Below, in pieces: positions 16,528 to 30,470 of a stretch of DNA of 33,414 bases; position 1 is the stretch's first letter; each line of letters begins with the position of its first letter. Both the position numbers and the translations under genes were made by a program. Origin of the DNA: Gammaproteobacteria bacterium (lineage in GTDB: Bacteria; Pseudomonadota; Gammaproteobacteria; UBA6186; Azoamicaceae); assembly GCA_018061325.1 (NCBI GenBank), contig JAGOUJ010000013.1:1-33414 (forward strand). Reading direction: 5' to 3'. Below the pieces are notes generated by a model that saw only the letters and a program-made list of their open reading frames with translations, made no database searches and was not told the DNA's origin.

Positions 16528-16603
16528 TCCCCGGTAGCTCAGTTGGTAGAGCACGTGGCTGTTAACCACTAGGTCGGCGGTTCGAGTCCGTCCCGGGGAG
16601 CCA
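16528..16603 (+). tRNA. tRNA-Asn (anticodon GTT)
   Basis: A 76-nt cloverleaf with encoded CCA. The acceptor stem TCCCCGG pairs fully with CCGGGGA. The D-arm is GCTC/GAGC, the anticodon loop CTGTTAA contains GTT, and the T-arm is GGCGG-TTCGAGT-CCGTC. The discriminator is G. One oddity is a C-U mismatch at the top of the anticodon stem (27-43), where a pair or G-U wobble is usual. The 3' part (16559-16603) is repeated imperfectly at 18081-18125. Confidence 0.97.
16559..16603 (+). repeat. attL-like repeat: 3' half of tRNA-Asn
   Basis: A 45-bp segment from the anticodon loop to CCA, matching 18081-18125 at 40 of 45 positions in the same orientation. tRNA 3' halves are the standard integration targets of tyrosine recombinases, so this is the likely left boundary of an inserted islet. 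Confidence 0.7.
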
Positions 16604-18080: not shown

Positions 18081-18125
18081 CTGTTAACCACTGGGTCAGT
18101 GGCTCGAGCCCGTCCCGGGGAGCCA
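18081..18125 (+). repeat. attR-like degenerate copy of the tRNA-Asn 3' half
   Basis: A 45-bp direct copy of 16559-16603 with five transitions and no 5' half, so it is not a functional tRNA. The conserved TTC of the T-loop has become CTC. It marks the likely right edge of the fic islet. Confidence 0.75.
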
Positions 18126-24012: not shown

Positions 24013-24699
24013 TTAGCAAAGGGGCAGGTTTATCATTTGCATGATCTGTGCACACACCGCCTTTACGCCTAATGCCGTGGTATCAATCACCACAGCATCC
24101 TCCGCAGGCTTCAAAGGTGCATCTGCACGCGCTCTATCGCGTGCATCCCGAAGCACCATCTGCCGCTGGAGGTCTTCTAGACTAACATTCTGCCCTGTTT
24201 CCTTCAACTGCCAATACCGACGTTCGGCGCGCAGAGCAGGAGAAGCCTCTAAAAAAAACTTGAAAGCTGCCTCTGGAAAGACCACGGTACCCATATCACG
24301 GCCATCAGCCACCAAACCAGCAGGGGTCGCAAAAGCACGCTGGCGTGCCAGCAGCGCTAATCGAAGGTTAGGCAACTGGGCTATTTCAGAAGCCATTTGG
24401 CTACACGCGTCAGTACGTATGATTTCGCTAACATCATCGTAGGGGCTGGTCTCTGTGCCGGCCCTTAGCAAGATCCTTCCATCATCCCCAAAAACAACCG
24501 TGAGAGAAGATGCGAGGGCGCACAGGGCTATTTCATCCGTGGGCGTTATCGAGGCCTGCATGGCTGCTAGCGCAACGACTCGATAAAGCGCACCGCTGTC
24601 TAAGAAATGCCAACCCAATTGCTTAGCAAGCATCCGACCCACAGCACCCTTGCCCGAACCACTGGGACCATCCAAGGTAATAATGGGAATATTATTCAT
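24013..24699 (-). CDS. cmk: Cytidylate kinase
   Basis: Start set at ATG 24697-24699 (228 residues), preceded by AGGTC and overlapping the ruvB stop by eight bases. The enzyme phosphorylates CMP and dCMP. The P-loop [11 protein letters not shown] lies at about residues 11-21, LLARQRAF and [17 protein letters not shown] form the CMP-binding and lid region, and the C-terminal [21 protein letters not shown] is typical. Oddity: between GRILL and DVSEIIRT there are about seven more residues (part of [10 protein letters not shown]) than in E. coli or Pseudomonas Cmk as I recall them, and these codons coincide with a copy of the palindromic GGGGCCGG repeat family. Confidence 0.93.
24441..24466. repeat. 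Palindromic repeat copy inside cmk
   Basis: A 26-bp segment matching the palindrome at 30342-30367 (reverse complement) at 22 of 26 positions, beginning AGGGG and ending GGCCCTT. It encodes the extra residues RAGTETSPY of Cmk in frame. Confidence 0.6.
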
Positions 24700-25750
24700 G
24701 GATGACCTGGGACACGGCTGGCACAAGGCCGATCTCGGCCCCTACGGTCGGCGTATACGCTAAACCAAAATGTTTATAAGTACGTTCTGTCACCACGCGG
24801 CCGCGCGGGGTGCGCATTAAAAAACCTTGCTGAATCAAAAAAGGCTCTAAGACTTCCTCAATGGTGCCACGCTCTTCACCAATCGCTGCAGCCACATTAT
24901 CCAAGCCCACAGGACCACCCCCAAAACTTTGGATAATCGTTTGCAGCAGTTTTTGATCCAGGCGATCAAAGCCCGCGCTATCAACGTTCAATAACGCCAA
25001 GGCCTGATCGGCCAGTGCTGCATTGATCAAGCCATTCGATCGAACCTCGGCATAATCCCGCACCCGACGCAGCAAACGATTTGCAATCCGTGGGGTTCCT
25101 CGGGAACGACAGGCAATTTCAGCTGCACCTTCATGGTCGAGTTGAATCTTTAAAATACCCGCTGAGCGTTTCAGGATTTGAATTAAATCTTCCACGGCAT
25201 AAAATTCTAAGCGTTGTACAATACCAAAACGATCGCGCAGAGGCGAGGTTAATAAACCGGCCCTTGTGGTAGCGCCTACCAAGGTAAAAGCCGGTAAATC
25301 CAGTTGAATAGAACGTGCGCCCGCCCCTTCTCCAATCATAATATCAATACGTCCATCTTCCATGGCTGGATATAAAATTTCTTCAACAATAGGACTTAAA
25401 CGATGAATTTCATCAATAAACAAAATATCTTTGGGTTCTAAACTGGTTAAGATCGCCGCTAAATCGGCCGGTCGCTCTAAAATAGGGCCCGAGGTTTGCT
25501 TGAGCGATCCGCCCATTTCAAAGGCAATTACCTGCGCTAAGGTTGTTTTTCCCAAACCGGGTGGCCCAAAAATTAAAACATGTTCCAATGCTTCTGAACG
25601 ATTTTTGGCCGCCTGCATAAAGAGCGTCATTTGCTCGCATACTTCGGATTGCCCAATGTATTCTGATAATTGTTTGGGACGAATAACACGCTCTGCCATC
25701 CGTTCATCGGTTTGCACAAGCGCCGTGCTTAAACGATCGGATTCAATCAT
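24692..25750 (-). CDS. ruvB: Holliday junction branch-migration helicase RuvB
   Basis: A 352-residue AAA+ motor. Walker A is [11 protein letters not shown] (about residues 61-71), Walker [12 protein letters not shown], sensor 1 [18 protein letters not shown], and the C-terminal winged helix is [13 protein letters not shown]. It forms hexamers with RuvA to drive branch migration. It overlaps ruvA by four bases (ATGA). Oddity: after the usual end near KHFGL there is a tail of about 19 residues ([20 protein letters not shown] less one) partly encoded by a diverged copy of the palindromic repeat family, which carries the frame into the cmk start. Confidence 0.97.
24714..24748. repeat. Diverged palindromic repeat copy at the 3' end of ruvB
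   Basis: Read on the minus strand it aligns with the 30342-30367 element as GTAGGGGCC, then a six-base insertion GAGATC, then GGCCTTGTGCCAGCC, lacking one A. It encodes the extra C-terminal residues of RuvB. Weaker than the other three copies. Confidence 0.4.
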
Positions 25751-26382
25751 GAGGTTGTCACCACACGGCCACCCTTTGCCAACACTTGTAAAGCACGGCG
25801 TATTAAATCTTCCGTAGACGCTTCTGTGGGGTGCATCGCTTGAATCATTTTAGAAGCTTCCGAAGGTTTATACCCCAAGGTAATCAATGCAGCAATGGCC
25901 TCTTCTGACGGTGTATTTTCTACGGGCTGATGCGTCGTCTGTTCAAACAGCTGTCTAGATAAAGCTTCTTCTCCCTGATTCAAGGCTAATTTACCCGCCA
26001 TTTCAATCATCAAACGCTCTGCCGTTTTGCGACCCACCCCTGGCAAACGCATGAGGTTTTCAATCAATCGCTGATCCACACACTGAATAAATTGCGAAAC
26101 ACTCATCCCCGACAAAATAGCCAAGGCCATTTTAGGACCCACCCCCGATATTTTAATAAGCGCTCTAAACAGCGTTCTTTCTTGCTCTTGGATAAAACCA
26201 TAAAGCACCTGCAGATCTTCGCGCACATGAAAATGCGTGAGTAAAATAACCTCCGACCCTAACGGCGGCAATTGATAGATCGTCGACATGGGCACTTGCA
26301 CATCATAGCCCAAGCCCCCAAGCTCTACGACCAAAAAAGGCGGTTTTTTAAGGACTAATAAACCCCGTAAACGTCCAATCAT
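25747..26382 (-). CDS. ruvA: Holliday junction DNA-binding protein RuvA
   Basis: Start set at ATG 26380-26382 (211 residues): it has AAGGGTG upstream, overlaps the ruvC stop by four bases and gives the conserved N-terminus MIGRLRGLL. Domain I is an OB fold, domain II has two helix-hairpin-helix motifs ([14 protein letters not shown] and [16 protein letters not shown]), and domain III, which contacts RuvB, is [21 protein letters not shown]. Length is normal. The tetramer holds the four-way junction open for RuvB and RuvC. Confidence 0.96.
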
Positions 26383-26873
26383 ACAACACCCTTCTGATAC
26401 AGACCGTGGTGTTGTGCATGACACAGCGCAACCGCTAAGGCATCGGCCGCATCCACTTGGGGTAATCCATTCAATTTAAATAAAGCTTTGATCATCTGTT
26501 GAACCTGTTTTTTATCGGCGCCCCCAAAACCCACCACCGCTTTCTTGATGCGACGGGGTGCGTACTCCTGCACCACACAACCATGAAGGGCTGCTACCAA
26601 CATCACAATACCTCGCGCTTGCGCTAATTTTAAAGTAGAGGCTACATTTTTATGCACAAAAATTTGCTCCAAGGCTATCACCTGTGGCGTATAATCGGTC
26701 ATTACTTGCGATAAACCTTCAAAAATATGTTTAAGCCTTTCATGAAAGGGATAATTTCCCACCCGAATGCAACCGCTTCCGATATAATGTTGTCGACCCC
26801 GCAGTTGTTCAATCACACCAAAACCGGTAATGCGCGAACCTGGGTCAACGCCTAGGATACGTAGAATGCTCAA
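26379..26873 (-). CDS. ruvC: Crossover junction endodeoxyribonuclease RuvC
   Basis: A 164-residue RNase H-fold resolvase cutting Holliday junctions. Catalytic acidic residues are visible in ILGVDPGSRITGFGVI (first Asp), IALEQIFVH (Glu) and QVDAADALAVALCH (two Asp). The start is TTG at 26871-26873, overlapping the yebC TGA; no in-frame ATG or GTG lies upstream and the conserved core begins only five codons later, so TTG with translational coupling is the best choice. It ends in the four-base overlap with ruvA. Confidence 0.95.
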   Translation of the reverse strand: MSILRILGVDPGSRITGFGVIEQLRGRQHYIGSGCIRVGNYPFHERLKHIFEGLSQVMTDYTPQVIALEQIFVHKNVASTLKLAQARGIVMLVAALHGCVVQEYAPRRIKKAVVGFGGADKKQVQQMIKALFKLNGLPQVDAADALAVALCHAQHHGLYQKGVV

Positions 26874-27622
26874 TCCACATCCATTGCGATGCTTGCATCA
26901 ATCTGCGCATTTGAATGAACGGTTTGTACATCGTCCAATTCTTCTAAGCCATTCGTGAGTTTCATCCATTTTTCGGCAATGAGTGCATCGTCGATGATAA
27001 CATTTGTGGTAGCAATCAATGTAATCTCGGCACCTTCGATTTTCAAACCCTGGGTTTCCATGGCCTGTTTCACCTGATAGAAATCTTCAAAGCGTGTTAG
27101 GACTTCAATACTACCATCCATTTCCACTTGCAAATCTTCTGCACCGGCTTCTAATGCCACCTCTGTGATTTTTTGTTCATCCGCGCCTGGCGCAAAGAAA
27201 ATCTGGCCTTTTTCGCTAAATAAATAAGCGACCGAACCATCAGTCCCTAAATTACCACCATGTTTGACCAATAGATGACGCACATCCGCCACCGTACGTT
27301 TTCGATTATTGGTCATGCAATCGATGATCAAGGCCACGCCCCCTGGGCCATAGCCTTCATAACGTACTTCTTCAATATCCTGACCTTCTTGTCCCCCAAA
27401 GCCACGTTTGACAGCCCGATCAATCACATCACGGGTCATATTCACGGATAAGGCTTTATCAACAGCCCGTCTTAAACGCGGATTGAGTTGGGGATCCATA
27501 CCGCCACCTTGGCGCGCAGCAACGCTGATCTCCCGAATACATTTGGTAAACAATTTGCCCCGTTTGGCATCTTGTCCCATTTTTTTAAATTTAATGTTTG
27601 CCCACTTACTATGGCCAGCCAT
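26870..27622 (-). CDS. yebC: YebC/PmpR-family protein
   Basis: A 250-residue member of the YebC/TACO1 family: MAGHSKWANIKFKKMGQDAKRGK at the N-terminus, YEGYGPGGVALIIDCMTNNRKRT in the middle, and GTDGSVAYLFSEKGQI. Members were described as transcription regulators and more recently as factors that help ribosomes through proline-rich stretches. TGAGGTG lies nine bases before the start. The order yebC-ruvC-ruvA-ruvB is the common gammaproteobacterial one. Confidence 0.96.
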   Translation of the reverse strand: MAGHSKWANIKFKKMGQDAKRGKLFTKCIREISVAARQGGGMDPQLNPRLRRAVDKALSVNMTRDVIDRAVKRGFGGQEGQDIEEVRYEGYGPGGVALIIDCMTNNRKRTVADVRHLLVKHGGNLGTDGSVAYLFSEKGQIFFAPGADEQKITEVALEAGAEDLQVEMDGSIEVLTRFEDFYQVKQAMETQGLKIEGAEITLIATTNVIIDDALIAEKWMKLTNGLEELDDVQTVHSNAQIDASIAMDVD

Positions 27623-27648
27623 GGATAATACACCTCAATGATTTATTG

Positions 27649-28719
27649 TTAGATTCCCCGATGCGATGGTCTAGGCCAAGCACTGAGCACAGCTTTCACT
27701 AAAGTCGCAAGGGGTATGGCAAAGAAAACACCCCAAAAACCCCAAATACCCCCAAAGAAAAGCGTTGCAATAATGATCGCCACGGGATGTAAATTAACAG
27801 CCTCTGAAAACAATAAGGGCACTAAGACATTACCATCCAGCGCTTGAACAATACCATAGGCTAGCATGCAGTAACGAAAGTCTGGACTCCAACCCCACTG
27901 TACATACCCAACCAATAGTACCGGAATACTAATCACCATCGCACCCACATAGGGTATTAATACAGATAATCCCACCAAAGAGGCTAGCAATACCGCATAA
28001 CGCATCTCAAAAAACCAAAAGACCCCATAGGTGCTCATCCCCACCAATAAAATTTCAAATACTTTGCCACGAATATAATTAGCGACTTGATTATTCACCT
28101 CAAACGATACCTGTCTTAACACGCCCCGTTTGCGCGGTAAAAATGCTGCAACCCACTTCATTATCTGTGTTTTATCTTTAAGCAGAAAAAAGACCAATAA
28201 GGGCACTAAAATCGCATAGACCATGCTGGTCATTAAAGTGGTAATCGAAGACCAAGAAGCGAATAACACCATTTTAGCCGCATCGTGACTTTGGGCTAAA
28301 AACTCTGCACTCACGGTGCGGATCTGCTCTTGGGATAACACCGTGGGAAAACGACGCATGAACTCAAATAAAATCGCTTGGCCTTTTGAAAGGATCTGGG
28401 GTAAATCGTCAAACAAAGCCACCGATTGCTTCCATAGTAAAGGTAAGAGCATGAAAAAGGCGATAAGAGATAATCCTAAAAATCCTATAAACACCAATAA
28501 TACTGCAACAATACGAGGCATTTTAAAATATTGTAATTGAGCAATCACCCATTCTAATAGGTAGGCAATCACCACACTGGCTAAAACAGGGGCCAAAATG
28601 CGTCCCACCGTGAGAACAAGGCCAAAACCAATCAGCAATACAAAAAAGAGTACAATCGCCTCTGGGTCTGAAAAATACTGCTTTATCCACTGTCTTAAGG
28701 TATGAATCACTACGCACAC
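27649..28719 (-). CDS. perM: AI-2E/PerM-family membrane transporter
   Basis: About 356 residues with eight likely membrane helices in the AI-2E exporter arrangement: two N-terminal hairpins, a helical soluble segment (about residues 95-150), then helices ending in IIIATLFFGGIWGFWGVFFAIPLATLVKA, the family's C-terminal signature. Some relatives export autoinducer-2 or act as Na+/H+ antiporters; the substrate cannot be read from sequence. The start is uncertain: GTG at 28717-28719 or GTG three codons on at 28708-28710, both with weak ribosome-binding sites. It lies 26 bases upstream of yebC and is probably co-transcribed with it. Confidence 0.87.
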   Translation of the reverse strand: MCVVIHTLRQWIKQYFSDPEAIVLFFVLLIGFGLVLTVGRILAPVLASVVIAYLLEWVIAQLQYFKMPRIVAVLLVFIGFLGLSLIAFFMLLPLLWKQSVALFDDLPQILSKGQAILFEFMRRFPTVLSQEQIRTVSAEFLAQSHDAAKMVLFASWSSITTLMTSMVYAILVPLLVFFLLKDKTQIMKWVAAFLPRKRGVLRQVSFEVNNQVANYIRGKVFEILLVGMSTYGVFWFFEMRYAVLLASLVGLSVLIPYVGAMVISIPVLLVGYVQWGWSPDFRYCMLAYGIVQALDGNVLVPLLFSEAVNLHPVAIIIATLFFGGIWGFWGVFFAIPLATLVKAVLSAWPRPSHRGI

Positions 28720-28779
28720 TCACATGGGAATACTGGGCTTTAGTCTAGCGCAAAAGGCGCTGGGTTGCACCTTGCGTAT

Positions 28780-30318
28780 TCAGGCACCGGCTGCAATCGT
28801 GCTTATCGGTATTTCTGATTTTTGTAAGCTAGTCGACCTGAGAGCTTGATAACATCGATACGCAAAGAGATGCGAAGCATGCACCATACACACCATCACA
28901 TACGTGTAACGCAATGTGCCCGCCATCGAACAAAAAAACAACACAAGCATTAATGTTAAACCCACGGCATTCATACACAATAAGGGCACTGCAGCCCAGG
29001 TTCTACCCAGCGCTCGTAGACCCAGCATGCAATAGGCTATGCATAATAACGCCGGTATAGCATGTGACATGCTCAAGAAAGCAAGCATGGCCAGCGCTTG
29101 GTACCAAACGCTGTCGTAAAATACACTGTCTGCAATCTCTGAGACGGCTTCGATCTCAGGCTCAGACACTTCTGAAACACCTTGAGATAACACACGACCT
29201 AGGCCATACAAAATCTTGTAGGTTGTGGTATGCGGGGCGGCTATTTTTTCTATCACACGAGGCCCCATGGTAAAACCGGGGGGTGATAAAAGCGTGTGCG
29301 ATATATTCTGCAGTCGATGCTGAAGGTACAACACAGGATGAGCCTTGAGTGCTGTTAACCAAGCCGCATACAGTGTATCTCTTTCTGTGGGATCACGCCC
29401 TATTCTTAAAATGGCCTCATGCCCCACGGCGGGATTAGACATCACAAGTTCATCCACACGGTTATTTTTACCATCGAACTGCTTCAAAAAGGCCTCCATA
29501 CTAAAACCAGGAAGCTTGGCAAAGTCTGGAAAGTTCGATTCCTTGGTACGCGCGGCAATACCCGCCAAATCGTAGATTTTCACATATTGCCAGGCATGGT
29601 TTTTTTGAGTCTCTGGTACTAACGTACGATTAATACCGTATAAGGCCGCATAAAAGGCAAGGGATAGGCCAAGACACCCTACGATAAATTGTTTCGAACG
29701 CATTTTATTATCTGCCATCATAAAGGCCATCCAGGCGAGGATAATAGGTGCACAATACTGCGCTTGAAATTTGAGTGCAGTACCATAAAGCAGAATAATC
29801 CCTACCAGGGTGAGTGCATACCACCGTGGTTTTTGATGATGGGCTGCACAATAGCCTAAATAGGCGGTACAAAACAAAAAACTAAAGGCAAAGCCAACGT
29901 CCTTTAAGATCACACTCGAGAAGATAAAAACGTGGGGTATGAGCGGTACGAACAAACAGAATAATCGACTTTTAAACGATGCGAAGCTTTTAATATAAAA
30001 AGCGAGCGCGCCATAGAATAAGGACAACTGGAGTAGGAGCATCAACCCAGGCCCAGGATAGATCTTATCTAAATAGCGCCAAACAAAAGACATGAACGGT
30101 GGATGATGGTCGCTATAAGCCCCCGCGATAGCCTGTGCATACTGCACTTGACTATCGGAGGTTAGGAGACCTGGCCACATCACCCATAGCTGTAACAATC
30201 CCATCAGAAACAGGAACAGCCAAAGGAACCTGTAGGGGCCGGTCTTAGTGCCAGCCCTGCTCGAATCAATAGGATGATTTAGCAATCTAGGATTTAGAAG
30301 CTTGTGTGTATCTATCAT
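28780..30318 (-). CDS. Polytopic membrane protein, GT-C glycosyltransferase-like
   Basis: A 512-residue protein with about ten membrane helices. After the first helix comes LLTSDSQVQYAQAIAGAYSDHHPPFMSFVW, whose acidic SDS and DHHPP motifs in the first loop resemble GT-C enzymes that use polyprenyl-phosphate sugars. A large non-membrane segment (about 255-350) follows the seventh helix. The exact family is not certain. ATG 30316-30318 is chosen because AGGTGG lies six bases before it; a GTG at 30382-30384 would add residues coded entirely by a palindromic repeat. A second repeat copy encodes residues 20-30 (SRAGTKTGPYR) of the retained N-terminus. It lies 60 bases upstream of the perM-like gene. 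Confidence 0.72.
   Translation of the reverse strand: MIDTHKLLNPRLLNHPIDSSRAGTKTGPYRFLWLFLFLMGLLQLWVMWPGLLTSDSQVQYAQAIAGAYSDHHPPFMSFVWRYLDKIYPGPGLMLLLQLSLFYGALAFYIKSFASFKSRLFCLFVPLIPHVFIFSSVILKDVGFAFSFLFCTAYLGYCAAHHQKPRWYALTLVGIILLYGTALKFQAQYCAPIILAWMAFMMADNKMRSKQFIVGCLGLSLAFYAALYGINRTLVPETQKNHAWQYVKIYDLAGIAARTKESNFPDFAKLPGFSMEAFLKQFDGKNNRVDELVMSNPAVGHEAILRIGRDPTERDTLYAAWLTALKAHPVLYLQHRLQNISHTLLSPPGFTMGPRVIEKIAAPHTTTYKILYGLGRVLSQGVSEVSEPEIEAVSEIADSVFYDSVWYQALAMLAFLSMSHAIPALLCIAYCMLGLRALGRTWAAVPLLCMNAVGLTLMLVLFFCSMAGTLRYTYVMVCMVHASHLFAYRCYQALRSTSLQKSEIPISTIAAGA
30234..30259. repeat. Palindromic repeat, copy A (inside the GT-C gene)
   Basis: AGGGGCCGGTCTTAGTGCC then AGCCCTG: an imperfect hairpin with GGGGCCGG pairing with CCAGCCC. 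It is the reverse complement of 30342-30367 at 25 of 26 positions and encodes SRAGTKTGPYR in frame. Confidence 0.85.
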
Positions 30319-30341
30319 TAAAACCCACCTATATCCTGTTA

Positions 30342-30367
30342 CAGGGCCGGCACTAAGACCGGCCCCT
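30342..30367. repeat. Palindromic repeat, copy B (upstream of the GT-C gene)
   Basis: CAGGGCCGGCACTAAGACC then GGCCCCT, the inverted partner of copy A, 24 bp upstream of the chosen start codon. With copy A it could form a long stem in the transcript enclosing the ribosome-binding site and start codon of the GT-C gene. Confidence 0.85.
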
Positions 30368-30470
30368 GCGGTGCAAATTAACACTTCTAGGCCCTTTTTT
30401 CACCTGAAGACCTACAATTAATTAAGTTAAATTACTTTTAAACTTGCTGCCTCTTACCCTTATTTAAAGC

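Follow-up and report, generated by a model that had tools for sequence, protein, structure and literature searches.

Palindromic repeats in and beside cmk and ruvB

The stretch of DNA analysed here, called the window, comprises positions 1 to 33,414 of contig JAGOUJ010000013.1 (assembly GCA_018061325.1), from a gammaproteobacterium of the family Azoamicaceae. It carries four related palindromes, copies A to D, in or next to three genes: cmk, ruvB and a gene for a predicted multi-span membrane protein (Table 1). These palindromes belong to a dispersed, GTAG-tagged family of repetitive extragenic palindromes (REPs), and several of its copies are read in frame within genes. All four copies named in the original prediction, which had been made from the window's sequence, are present. 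Copies A, B and C were recovered with a 22-nt core pattern at up to three mismatches, for which 100 shuffles gave an expectation of 0.00. Copy D is too decayed for this pattern; at the orthologous place the sister genome has an intact REP, GTAGGGGCCGACCTCTGTGTCGGCCC. The proposed inverted pairing of A with B was borne out, as their 26-nt arms are 96% complementary and lie 82 nt apart.

Copy C had been predicted to add about seven residues to Cmk in frame. In an alignment of 21 Cmk sequences, extracted by script from 30 loci, the insert fills 7 columns in the window's own genome and in the sister genome, and it is absent from the other 19. Against the solved structure 1kdo, which we take to be E. 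coli cytidylate kinase, the gaps cluster around 'evILEGEDVS'; immediately upstream 1kdo has extra residues of its own, which leaves a net difference of 4 residues across the turn as a whole. Copy D is likewise read in frame, as predicted, in a RuvB tail that is longer and REP-bearing in these same two genomes and is without the REP in the other 4 of the 6 RuvBs compared. In all six genomes compared, ruvB ends at the start of cmk. The cmk and ruvB copies are thus common to two species, with about 90% DNA identity in that region.

Copy A lies in an open frame of the membrane-protein gene, as claimed, and is read only if translation begins at ATG 30318 or at another start upstream of A. This ATG is preceded by AGGTGGG, and by eye no in-frame ATG, GTG or TTG occurs between A and the first hydrophobic stretch. 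Judged from these signals, translation of copy A is likely but unproven. Copy B is probably untranslated, since it lies upstream of ATG 30318. The near-identity of the A and C peptides is real and simply reflects that one repeat is read in one frame in both. For the membrane protein neither Pfam nor NCBIfam gave a match, so that its earlier 'GT-C' label is unsupported, and a tblastn search against plasmids returned a single weak match (27% identity).

Table 1. REP copies and host genes of the window, followed by other proteins of the same genome that are read through a REP
Feature	Position	Strand	Remarks
REP copy A	30232..30257	+	GTAG on + strand; probably translated in frame, as RAGTKTGPYR, within the N-terminal part of the - strand membrane-protein ORF
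REP copy B	30344..30369	-	head GCAG, on - strand; forms a tail-to-tail pair with A; precedes likely ATG 30318; probably untranslated
REP copy C	24439..24464	+	inside cmk; 7 alignment columns beyond relatives without the REP
REP copy D	24720..24745	-	decayed; in extended C-terminal tail of ruvB; 6 nt shorter than the sister's intact copy, in frame
cmk, cytidylate kinase (PF02224)	24013..24699	-	host of copy C
ruvB, Holliday junction helicase (PF05496/PF17864/PF05491)	24692..25750	-	host of copy D; ruvB end overlaps cmk start
predicted multi-span membrane protein (by eye)	28780..30318	-	host of copy A; without family match
AcnA	REP at residue 456		inside Aconitase domain 118-624
MutL	REP at residue 396		between DNA_mis_repair and MutL_C
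AceF-type acyltransferase	REP at residue 115		between lipoyl and E3-binding domains
TilS	REP at residue 321		directly after last domain
4Fe-4S ferredoxin-like protein	REP at residue 157 of 171		
O-antigen ligase-like-GT2 fusion	REP at residue 416		between Wzy_C 209-353 and Glycos_transf_2 432-549

A dispersed family of GTAG-tagged REPs

The element, GTAGGGGCCGGTCTCnGTGCCGGCCC, is about 30 nt long; its sequence has a GTAG head and a 7-bp GGGCCGG/CCGGCCC stem closing an 8-nt loop. We searched for copies with the degenerate pattern GTAGGGGCSGNYCNCNGTGNCSGCCC, allowing at most 3 mismatches, and refer below to the window's own genome as G000 and to the sister genome as G002, naming copies by contig (C7, C23 and so on). 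The motif proved not to be rare: G000 (1,283,856 bases in 67 contigs) holds 21 copies on 16 contigs, and the five genomes of the family with copies, out of eleven, hold 132 together (G000 21, G002 23, G003 16, G005 11, G006 61). The same search found 0 copies in the remaining six. The reversed pattern gave 0 copies in all eleven, and a chance repeat as the origin of A to C is ruled out by this control together with the shuffle expectation. A GTAG start is found in 20 of the 21 copies of G000, a count to be read with the search pattern itself beginning with GTAG and tolerating up to three mismatches. A stricter pattern was present in 4 of 52 genomes of relatives. An exact scan of a genome collection matched 53 stretches. 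They are found in several metagenome-assembled genomes (MAGs) labelled Legionellales (the order to which Coxiella burnetii belongs), Legionella sp., or unclassified gamma- or proteobacteria, in MAGs of Auribacterota and Clostridia, and in one more proteobacterial MAG. Kinship with the Legionella-like MAGs among them suggests that G000, too, belongs to Legionellales.

The features of GTAG-tagged REPs are all found here: the GTAG end, a short stem (6-13 bp) with a loop, and dispersed single copies alongside inverted dimers, the latter represented in G000 by the A-B pair and by a dimer in AcnA. Moreover, GGG/CCC adjoins the GTAG, so that the stem starts from three G-C pairs in a row, as in subclass 2.4 REPs. 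Some dimers appear to recur as units, as would be expected of REPINs, in which two inverted REPs and their spacer move as one; six loci of the Legionellales MAG CANJMM (L205, L211, L212, L213, L220, L223) have a REP-31nt-REP arrangement with a similar spacer, and the G006 dimers on C4 and C8 have a common spacer by eye. The A-B spacer, however, matches that of no other dimer compared. In G006, C4:100953-101237 (L182) carries five close REPs in one orientation, several of which are read in frame, as repeated GPARGPAPT, close to the N-terminus of a 918-residue open reading frame (ORF).

Copies read in frame within genes

The prediction of a dispersed palindromic family entering genes in frame in a gammaproteobacterium held up. 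On the basis of ORFs and Pfam matches, 8 of the 21 copies of G000 are in frame (A counted as probable), 5 of them internally; inclusion of D, which like the decayed partner REP in AcnA is not among the 21, brings this to 9 of 22. Besides Cmk (copy C) and the membrane protein (copy A, probable), the hosts are those in the last rows of Table 1. Three copies lie in transposase remnants (two on C6, one on C66) and ten outside supported genes, namely those on C12, C23 and C59, which lie at plausible starts or ahead of them, and seven in no supported ORF, copy B included. In G002, 5 of the 23 copies are firmly within genes (CtaA-CtaB, LpxK, GatB, Cmk and RuvB), a count that leaves aside TolB, MltB, HemF and MutH, whose copies are N-terminal, and three ORFs lacking a Pfam match. 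Copies of G003, G005 and G006 were read as ORFs only. A hexamer coding-score heuristic was set aside: it flagged a different 8 of the 21, including C23 and C59, whose REP stands at the very beginning of the ORF, and missing TilS and the membrane protein.

The consensus has four open frames, and all of them are used in genes, giving peptides of the VGAGLSAGP, RGRSQCRP, GPALRPAPT and RAGTETGPY types. Selection of the REP for many open frames was unsupported, as its 4 open frames compare with a shuffle mean of 4.5 and 956 of 1000 shuffles reach 4. Compared with solved relatives, the inserts are located at alignment gaps. By a generous stop-to-stop count, about 94% of the window is under long ORFs. 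If hits were random, about one third of them keeping the frame and most frames being open, in-frame hits would make up a large part of the survivors; the observed 8 of 21 would fit in-frame insertions that do only mild harm, by what is a rough estimate and not a test.

Filled and empty sites in the sister genomes

Comparison of G000 with G002 revealed sites filled in one genome and empty in the other. AcnA of G000 is 84 nt longer, which corresponds to two REPs of opposite orientation, the second decayed; LpxK of G002 is 27 nt longer; and at the ferredoxin C-terminus the filled site has 58 nt more. Three further filled and empty sites lie outside supported ORFs, among them a near-clean 39-nt difference at G000 C7:4517. 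Eleven of the 21 copies of G000 could be compared with orthologous G002 DNA; three are shared (C12, C17 and cmk) and eight are absent from G002 (C4, C5, C7, C23, two on C42 and two on C55). Conversely, eight G002 copies were assessable in G000, four being shared, one of these as the decayed D, and four absent; as the compared stretches were partly chosen by synteny with known sites, neither set of fractions is an unbiased sample. The segment 28888-30395, with the membrane-protein gene, A and B, is absent from the G002 contig, an indel that may be either a gain or a loss.

A second GC-rich palindromic family was also observed, CCYTCTCCC..GGGAGARGG, often followed by GCGAAGC..GAGGGTGAGGG (L110, L352, L349, L131, L119, L129). 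The MutL linker of both sisters (L110, L352) and the N-terminal region of TolB in G000 (L349) contain it in frame, and at two sites it stands where a GTAG REP is found in the sister genome.

Genes joined across a REP

In G002, ctaA and ctaB form one 652-residue ORF that reads through RAGTETGPYN and retains both Pfam domains. The two are separate ORFs in G001, G003, G004, G005, G007 and G009; G006 has an interruption within the ctaB part itself, and no close relative of either gene was found in G000. A similar arrangement exists in G000, where an O-antigen ligase-like gene and a glycosyltransferase family 2 (GT2) gene constitute one 698-residue ORF through GRGRSQCRPL, with 34 nt more than in G002, in which the ligase-like gene ends in TGA just before a separate GT2 gene. 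A REP appears to weld neighbouring genes in both sisters, giving two candidate REP-made fusions. A literature search for REPINs or other palindromic elements with fusion of adjacent genes found no such report among the papers listed, most subscription papers lying outside its reach.

REPs at transposase genes

TnpA_REP, the REP-associated tyrosine transposase (RAYT), is reported to bind and cleave hairpins in a GTAG-dependent manner (PMC8266576). The window's REP type is found at intact-looking transposase genes in other MAGs. The L207 gene (Legionellales MAG CANJMM) is flanked by REPs, with overlap at its 3' end; the L202 gene (Auribacterota MAG JAGLFH) has one REP at its 5' end and another within it, read in frame as GPAQRPAPT. 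The best NCBIfam match of these transposases is NF047646, REP-associated tyrosine transposase, below its cut-off. An in-frame REP between the HuH and Tyr motifs is present in L202 (the window's type) and in L087 (a type-2 REP), not in L207. A motif script run over all loci examined, with near-duplicates dropped, yielded 19 transposase-like ORFs; 12 of them have a GTAG palindrome, which in 10, as judged by eye, lies between the regions of the HuH and Tyr motifs. Among 229 genomes of the class, 65 have relatives of the G005 transposase, many of these being weak matches. In G000, both transposase fragments found adjoin a sister REP type, GTAGGGGCGGACCGCnGTGTCCGCCC.

An element of about 0.5 kb resembling a miniature inverted-repeat transposable element (MITE) was noted at L015 1-1000 and L016 1350-2000, both loci also carrying a type-2 REP and the decayed C-terminus of a RAYT; by eye, its ends at L016 are inverted repeats around TATATACCCGTTxCACCTCAAGATGCGAACA. 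In the window, a tRNA-Asn gene (16528-16603) has a partial copy of its 3' end (89% over 45 nt) 1.5 kb away at 18081-18125, and this copy could mark an integrated element.

How the repeats may have spread and persisted

We consider it very probable that the palindromes are a GTAG-tagged REP family spread as hairpins by RAYT and that the copies within genes are tolerated passengers. REPs would spread, or would once have spread, as single-stranded hairpins handled by an HUH tyrosine transposase of the RAYT/TnpA_REP kind, resembling subclass 2.4, and it is such an enzyme that we infer to have moved these copies. A copy hitting a gene would survive if the net length change were a multiple of three and if it fell in a tolerated site such as a loop, an inter-domain linker, a protein end or a gene junction. 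Being GC-rich, the repeat is open in most frames, and the added peptides would be passengers rather than evolved parts, the host proteins presumably remaining functional.

Several observations weigh against this account. No intact RAYT was found in G000 (assembly 96.66% complete), only two C-terminal Y1 transposase fragments, and none was found in G002; present mobility is therefore unsupported. The transposases elsewhere score 67.0 (L087), 63.2 (L202) and 58.3 bits (L207) against an NCBIfam cut-off of 80. Most insertions are unclean, and some replace neighbouring bases. For LpxK and AcnA, residues kept by other relatives are missing as well from the sister that has no REP; at both sites a REP may therefore be older and have been lost by deletion, and the direction and mechanism of change there are uncertain. 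Finally, a structure prediction for Cmk from a two-sequence alignment had a mean pLDDT (predicted local distance difference test) of 44.5, was unusable and was not used.

Some of these irregularities would also be expected if the repeats had spread by recombination, template switching or palindrome replacement at hairpin hot spots instead of by transposition. At G000 C23 and TolB the sister has a different palindromic family at the same position, at G002 C32 another hairpin occupies the position by eye, and the replacement of bases at several insertions, like the want of an intact RAYT in G000, fits such exchange. We nevertheless regard this as unlikely, given the near-clean presence/absence site at G000 C7:4517, the apparent recurrence of REP dimers as units and the REP-bearing intact RAYT genes of other MAGs.

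It is also quite unlikely that the in-frame copies are selected protein parts, serving as useful linkers, tails or fusion joints. The persistence of the Cmk and RuvB copies in two species, the frame kept in copy D at exactly 6 nt shorter, and the joining in CtaA-CtaB of two genes from one pathway might be read in that way. However, all four usable frames occur, and therefore no common peptide is favoured; the inserts fall at alignment gaps relative to solved relatives; the open frames of the repeat are no commoner than in shuffles; and frame-keeping is expected from selection on the host genes alone. Transfer of Rickettsia palindromic elements (RPEs) into a gammaproteobacterium, suggested by their shared habit of lying in frame in many unrelated genes, is scarcely credible, as the tag is GTAG in 20 of 21 copies instead of CGTC, which rules out membership, and the window's repeat sits at RAYT genes, whereas CGTC REPs are reported to be without a dedicated transposase (PMC3733652).

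A further thought is offered tentatively, and we hold it to be rather doubtful: in this lineage GTAG REPs might be a recurrent source of protein change, supplying linkers in housekeeping enzymes and joints that fuse adjacent genes (CtaA-CtaB in G002, O-antigen ligase-GT2 in G000), at positions behaving as hot spots at which unrelated palindromic families are swapped between sister species.

Comparison with known systems

REPs fall into GTAG and CGTC super-families, and REPs inside ORFs, many in repair genes, have been described in several species (PMC3733652). The family reported here resembles the GTAG REPs of Di Nocera et al. 2013 in its GTAG head, short palindrome, single copies with head-to-head and tail-to-tail dimers, and many copies of which some lie wholly inside ORFs in frame, repair genes included; it differs in the new host clade and in the gene fusions across a REP, apparently without parallel there (PMC3733652). 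With TnpA_REP subclass 2.4, in which REP insertions in the transposase gene keep the frame, it has in common a long REP whose stem base consists of three G-C pairs, 'double foot' variants (such as the type-2 copy on C66) and transposase genes that carry an in-frame REP between HuH and Tyr (L202 and L087). Unlike that subclass, G000 was found to have transposase fragments only, and the likeness is one of REP features (PMC6006769).

Coxiella burnetii QMITE2 is likewise a GTAG REP in a gammaproteobacterium of intracellular lifestyle that is found at the 3' end of ruvB. QMITE2 is mostly a 150-190 bp MITE with direct repeats, its short versions being essentially REPs, and one copy overlaps the ruvB 3' end by 6 bp; here the REPs are bare and the RuvB copy lies well inside the tail (PMC5896051). 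The resemblance to Rickettsia palindromic elements drawn in the original prediction holds in behaviour, as both are short palindromes in frame in many genes, and fails in kind: R. conorii RPE-4 and RPE-6 are assigned to the CGTC kind, their hosts are alphaproteobacteria, and no dedicated transposase is reported for them, in contrast to the GTAG tag and transposase association found here (PMC3733652).

The sister genomes thus offer a clear case, with filled and empty sites, of REPs entering coding sequence in the housekeeping genes of a small-genome lineage, and they provide natural insertion variants of Cmk, AcnA, LpxK, GatB and MutL together with two candidate REP-made gene fusions. In-frame REPs are already known from other genes (2013, PMC3733652) and from their own transposase genes (2018, PMC6006769). 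New here are the host clade, the housekeeping genes hit and the two candidate gene fusions bridged by a REP.

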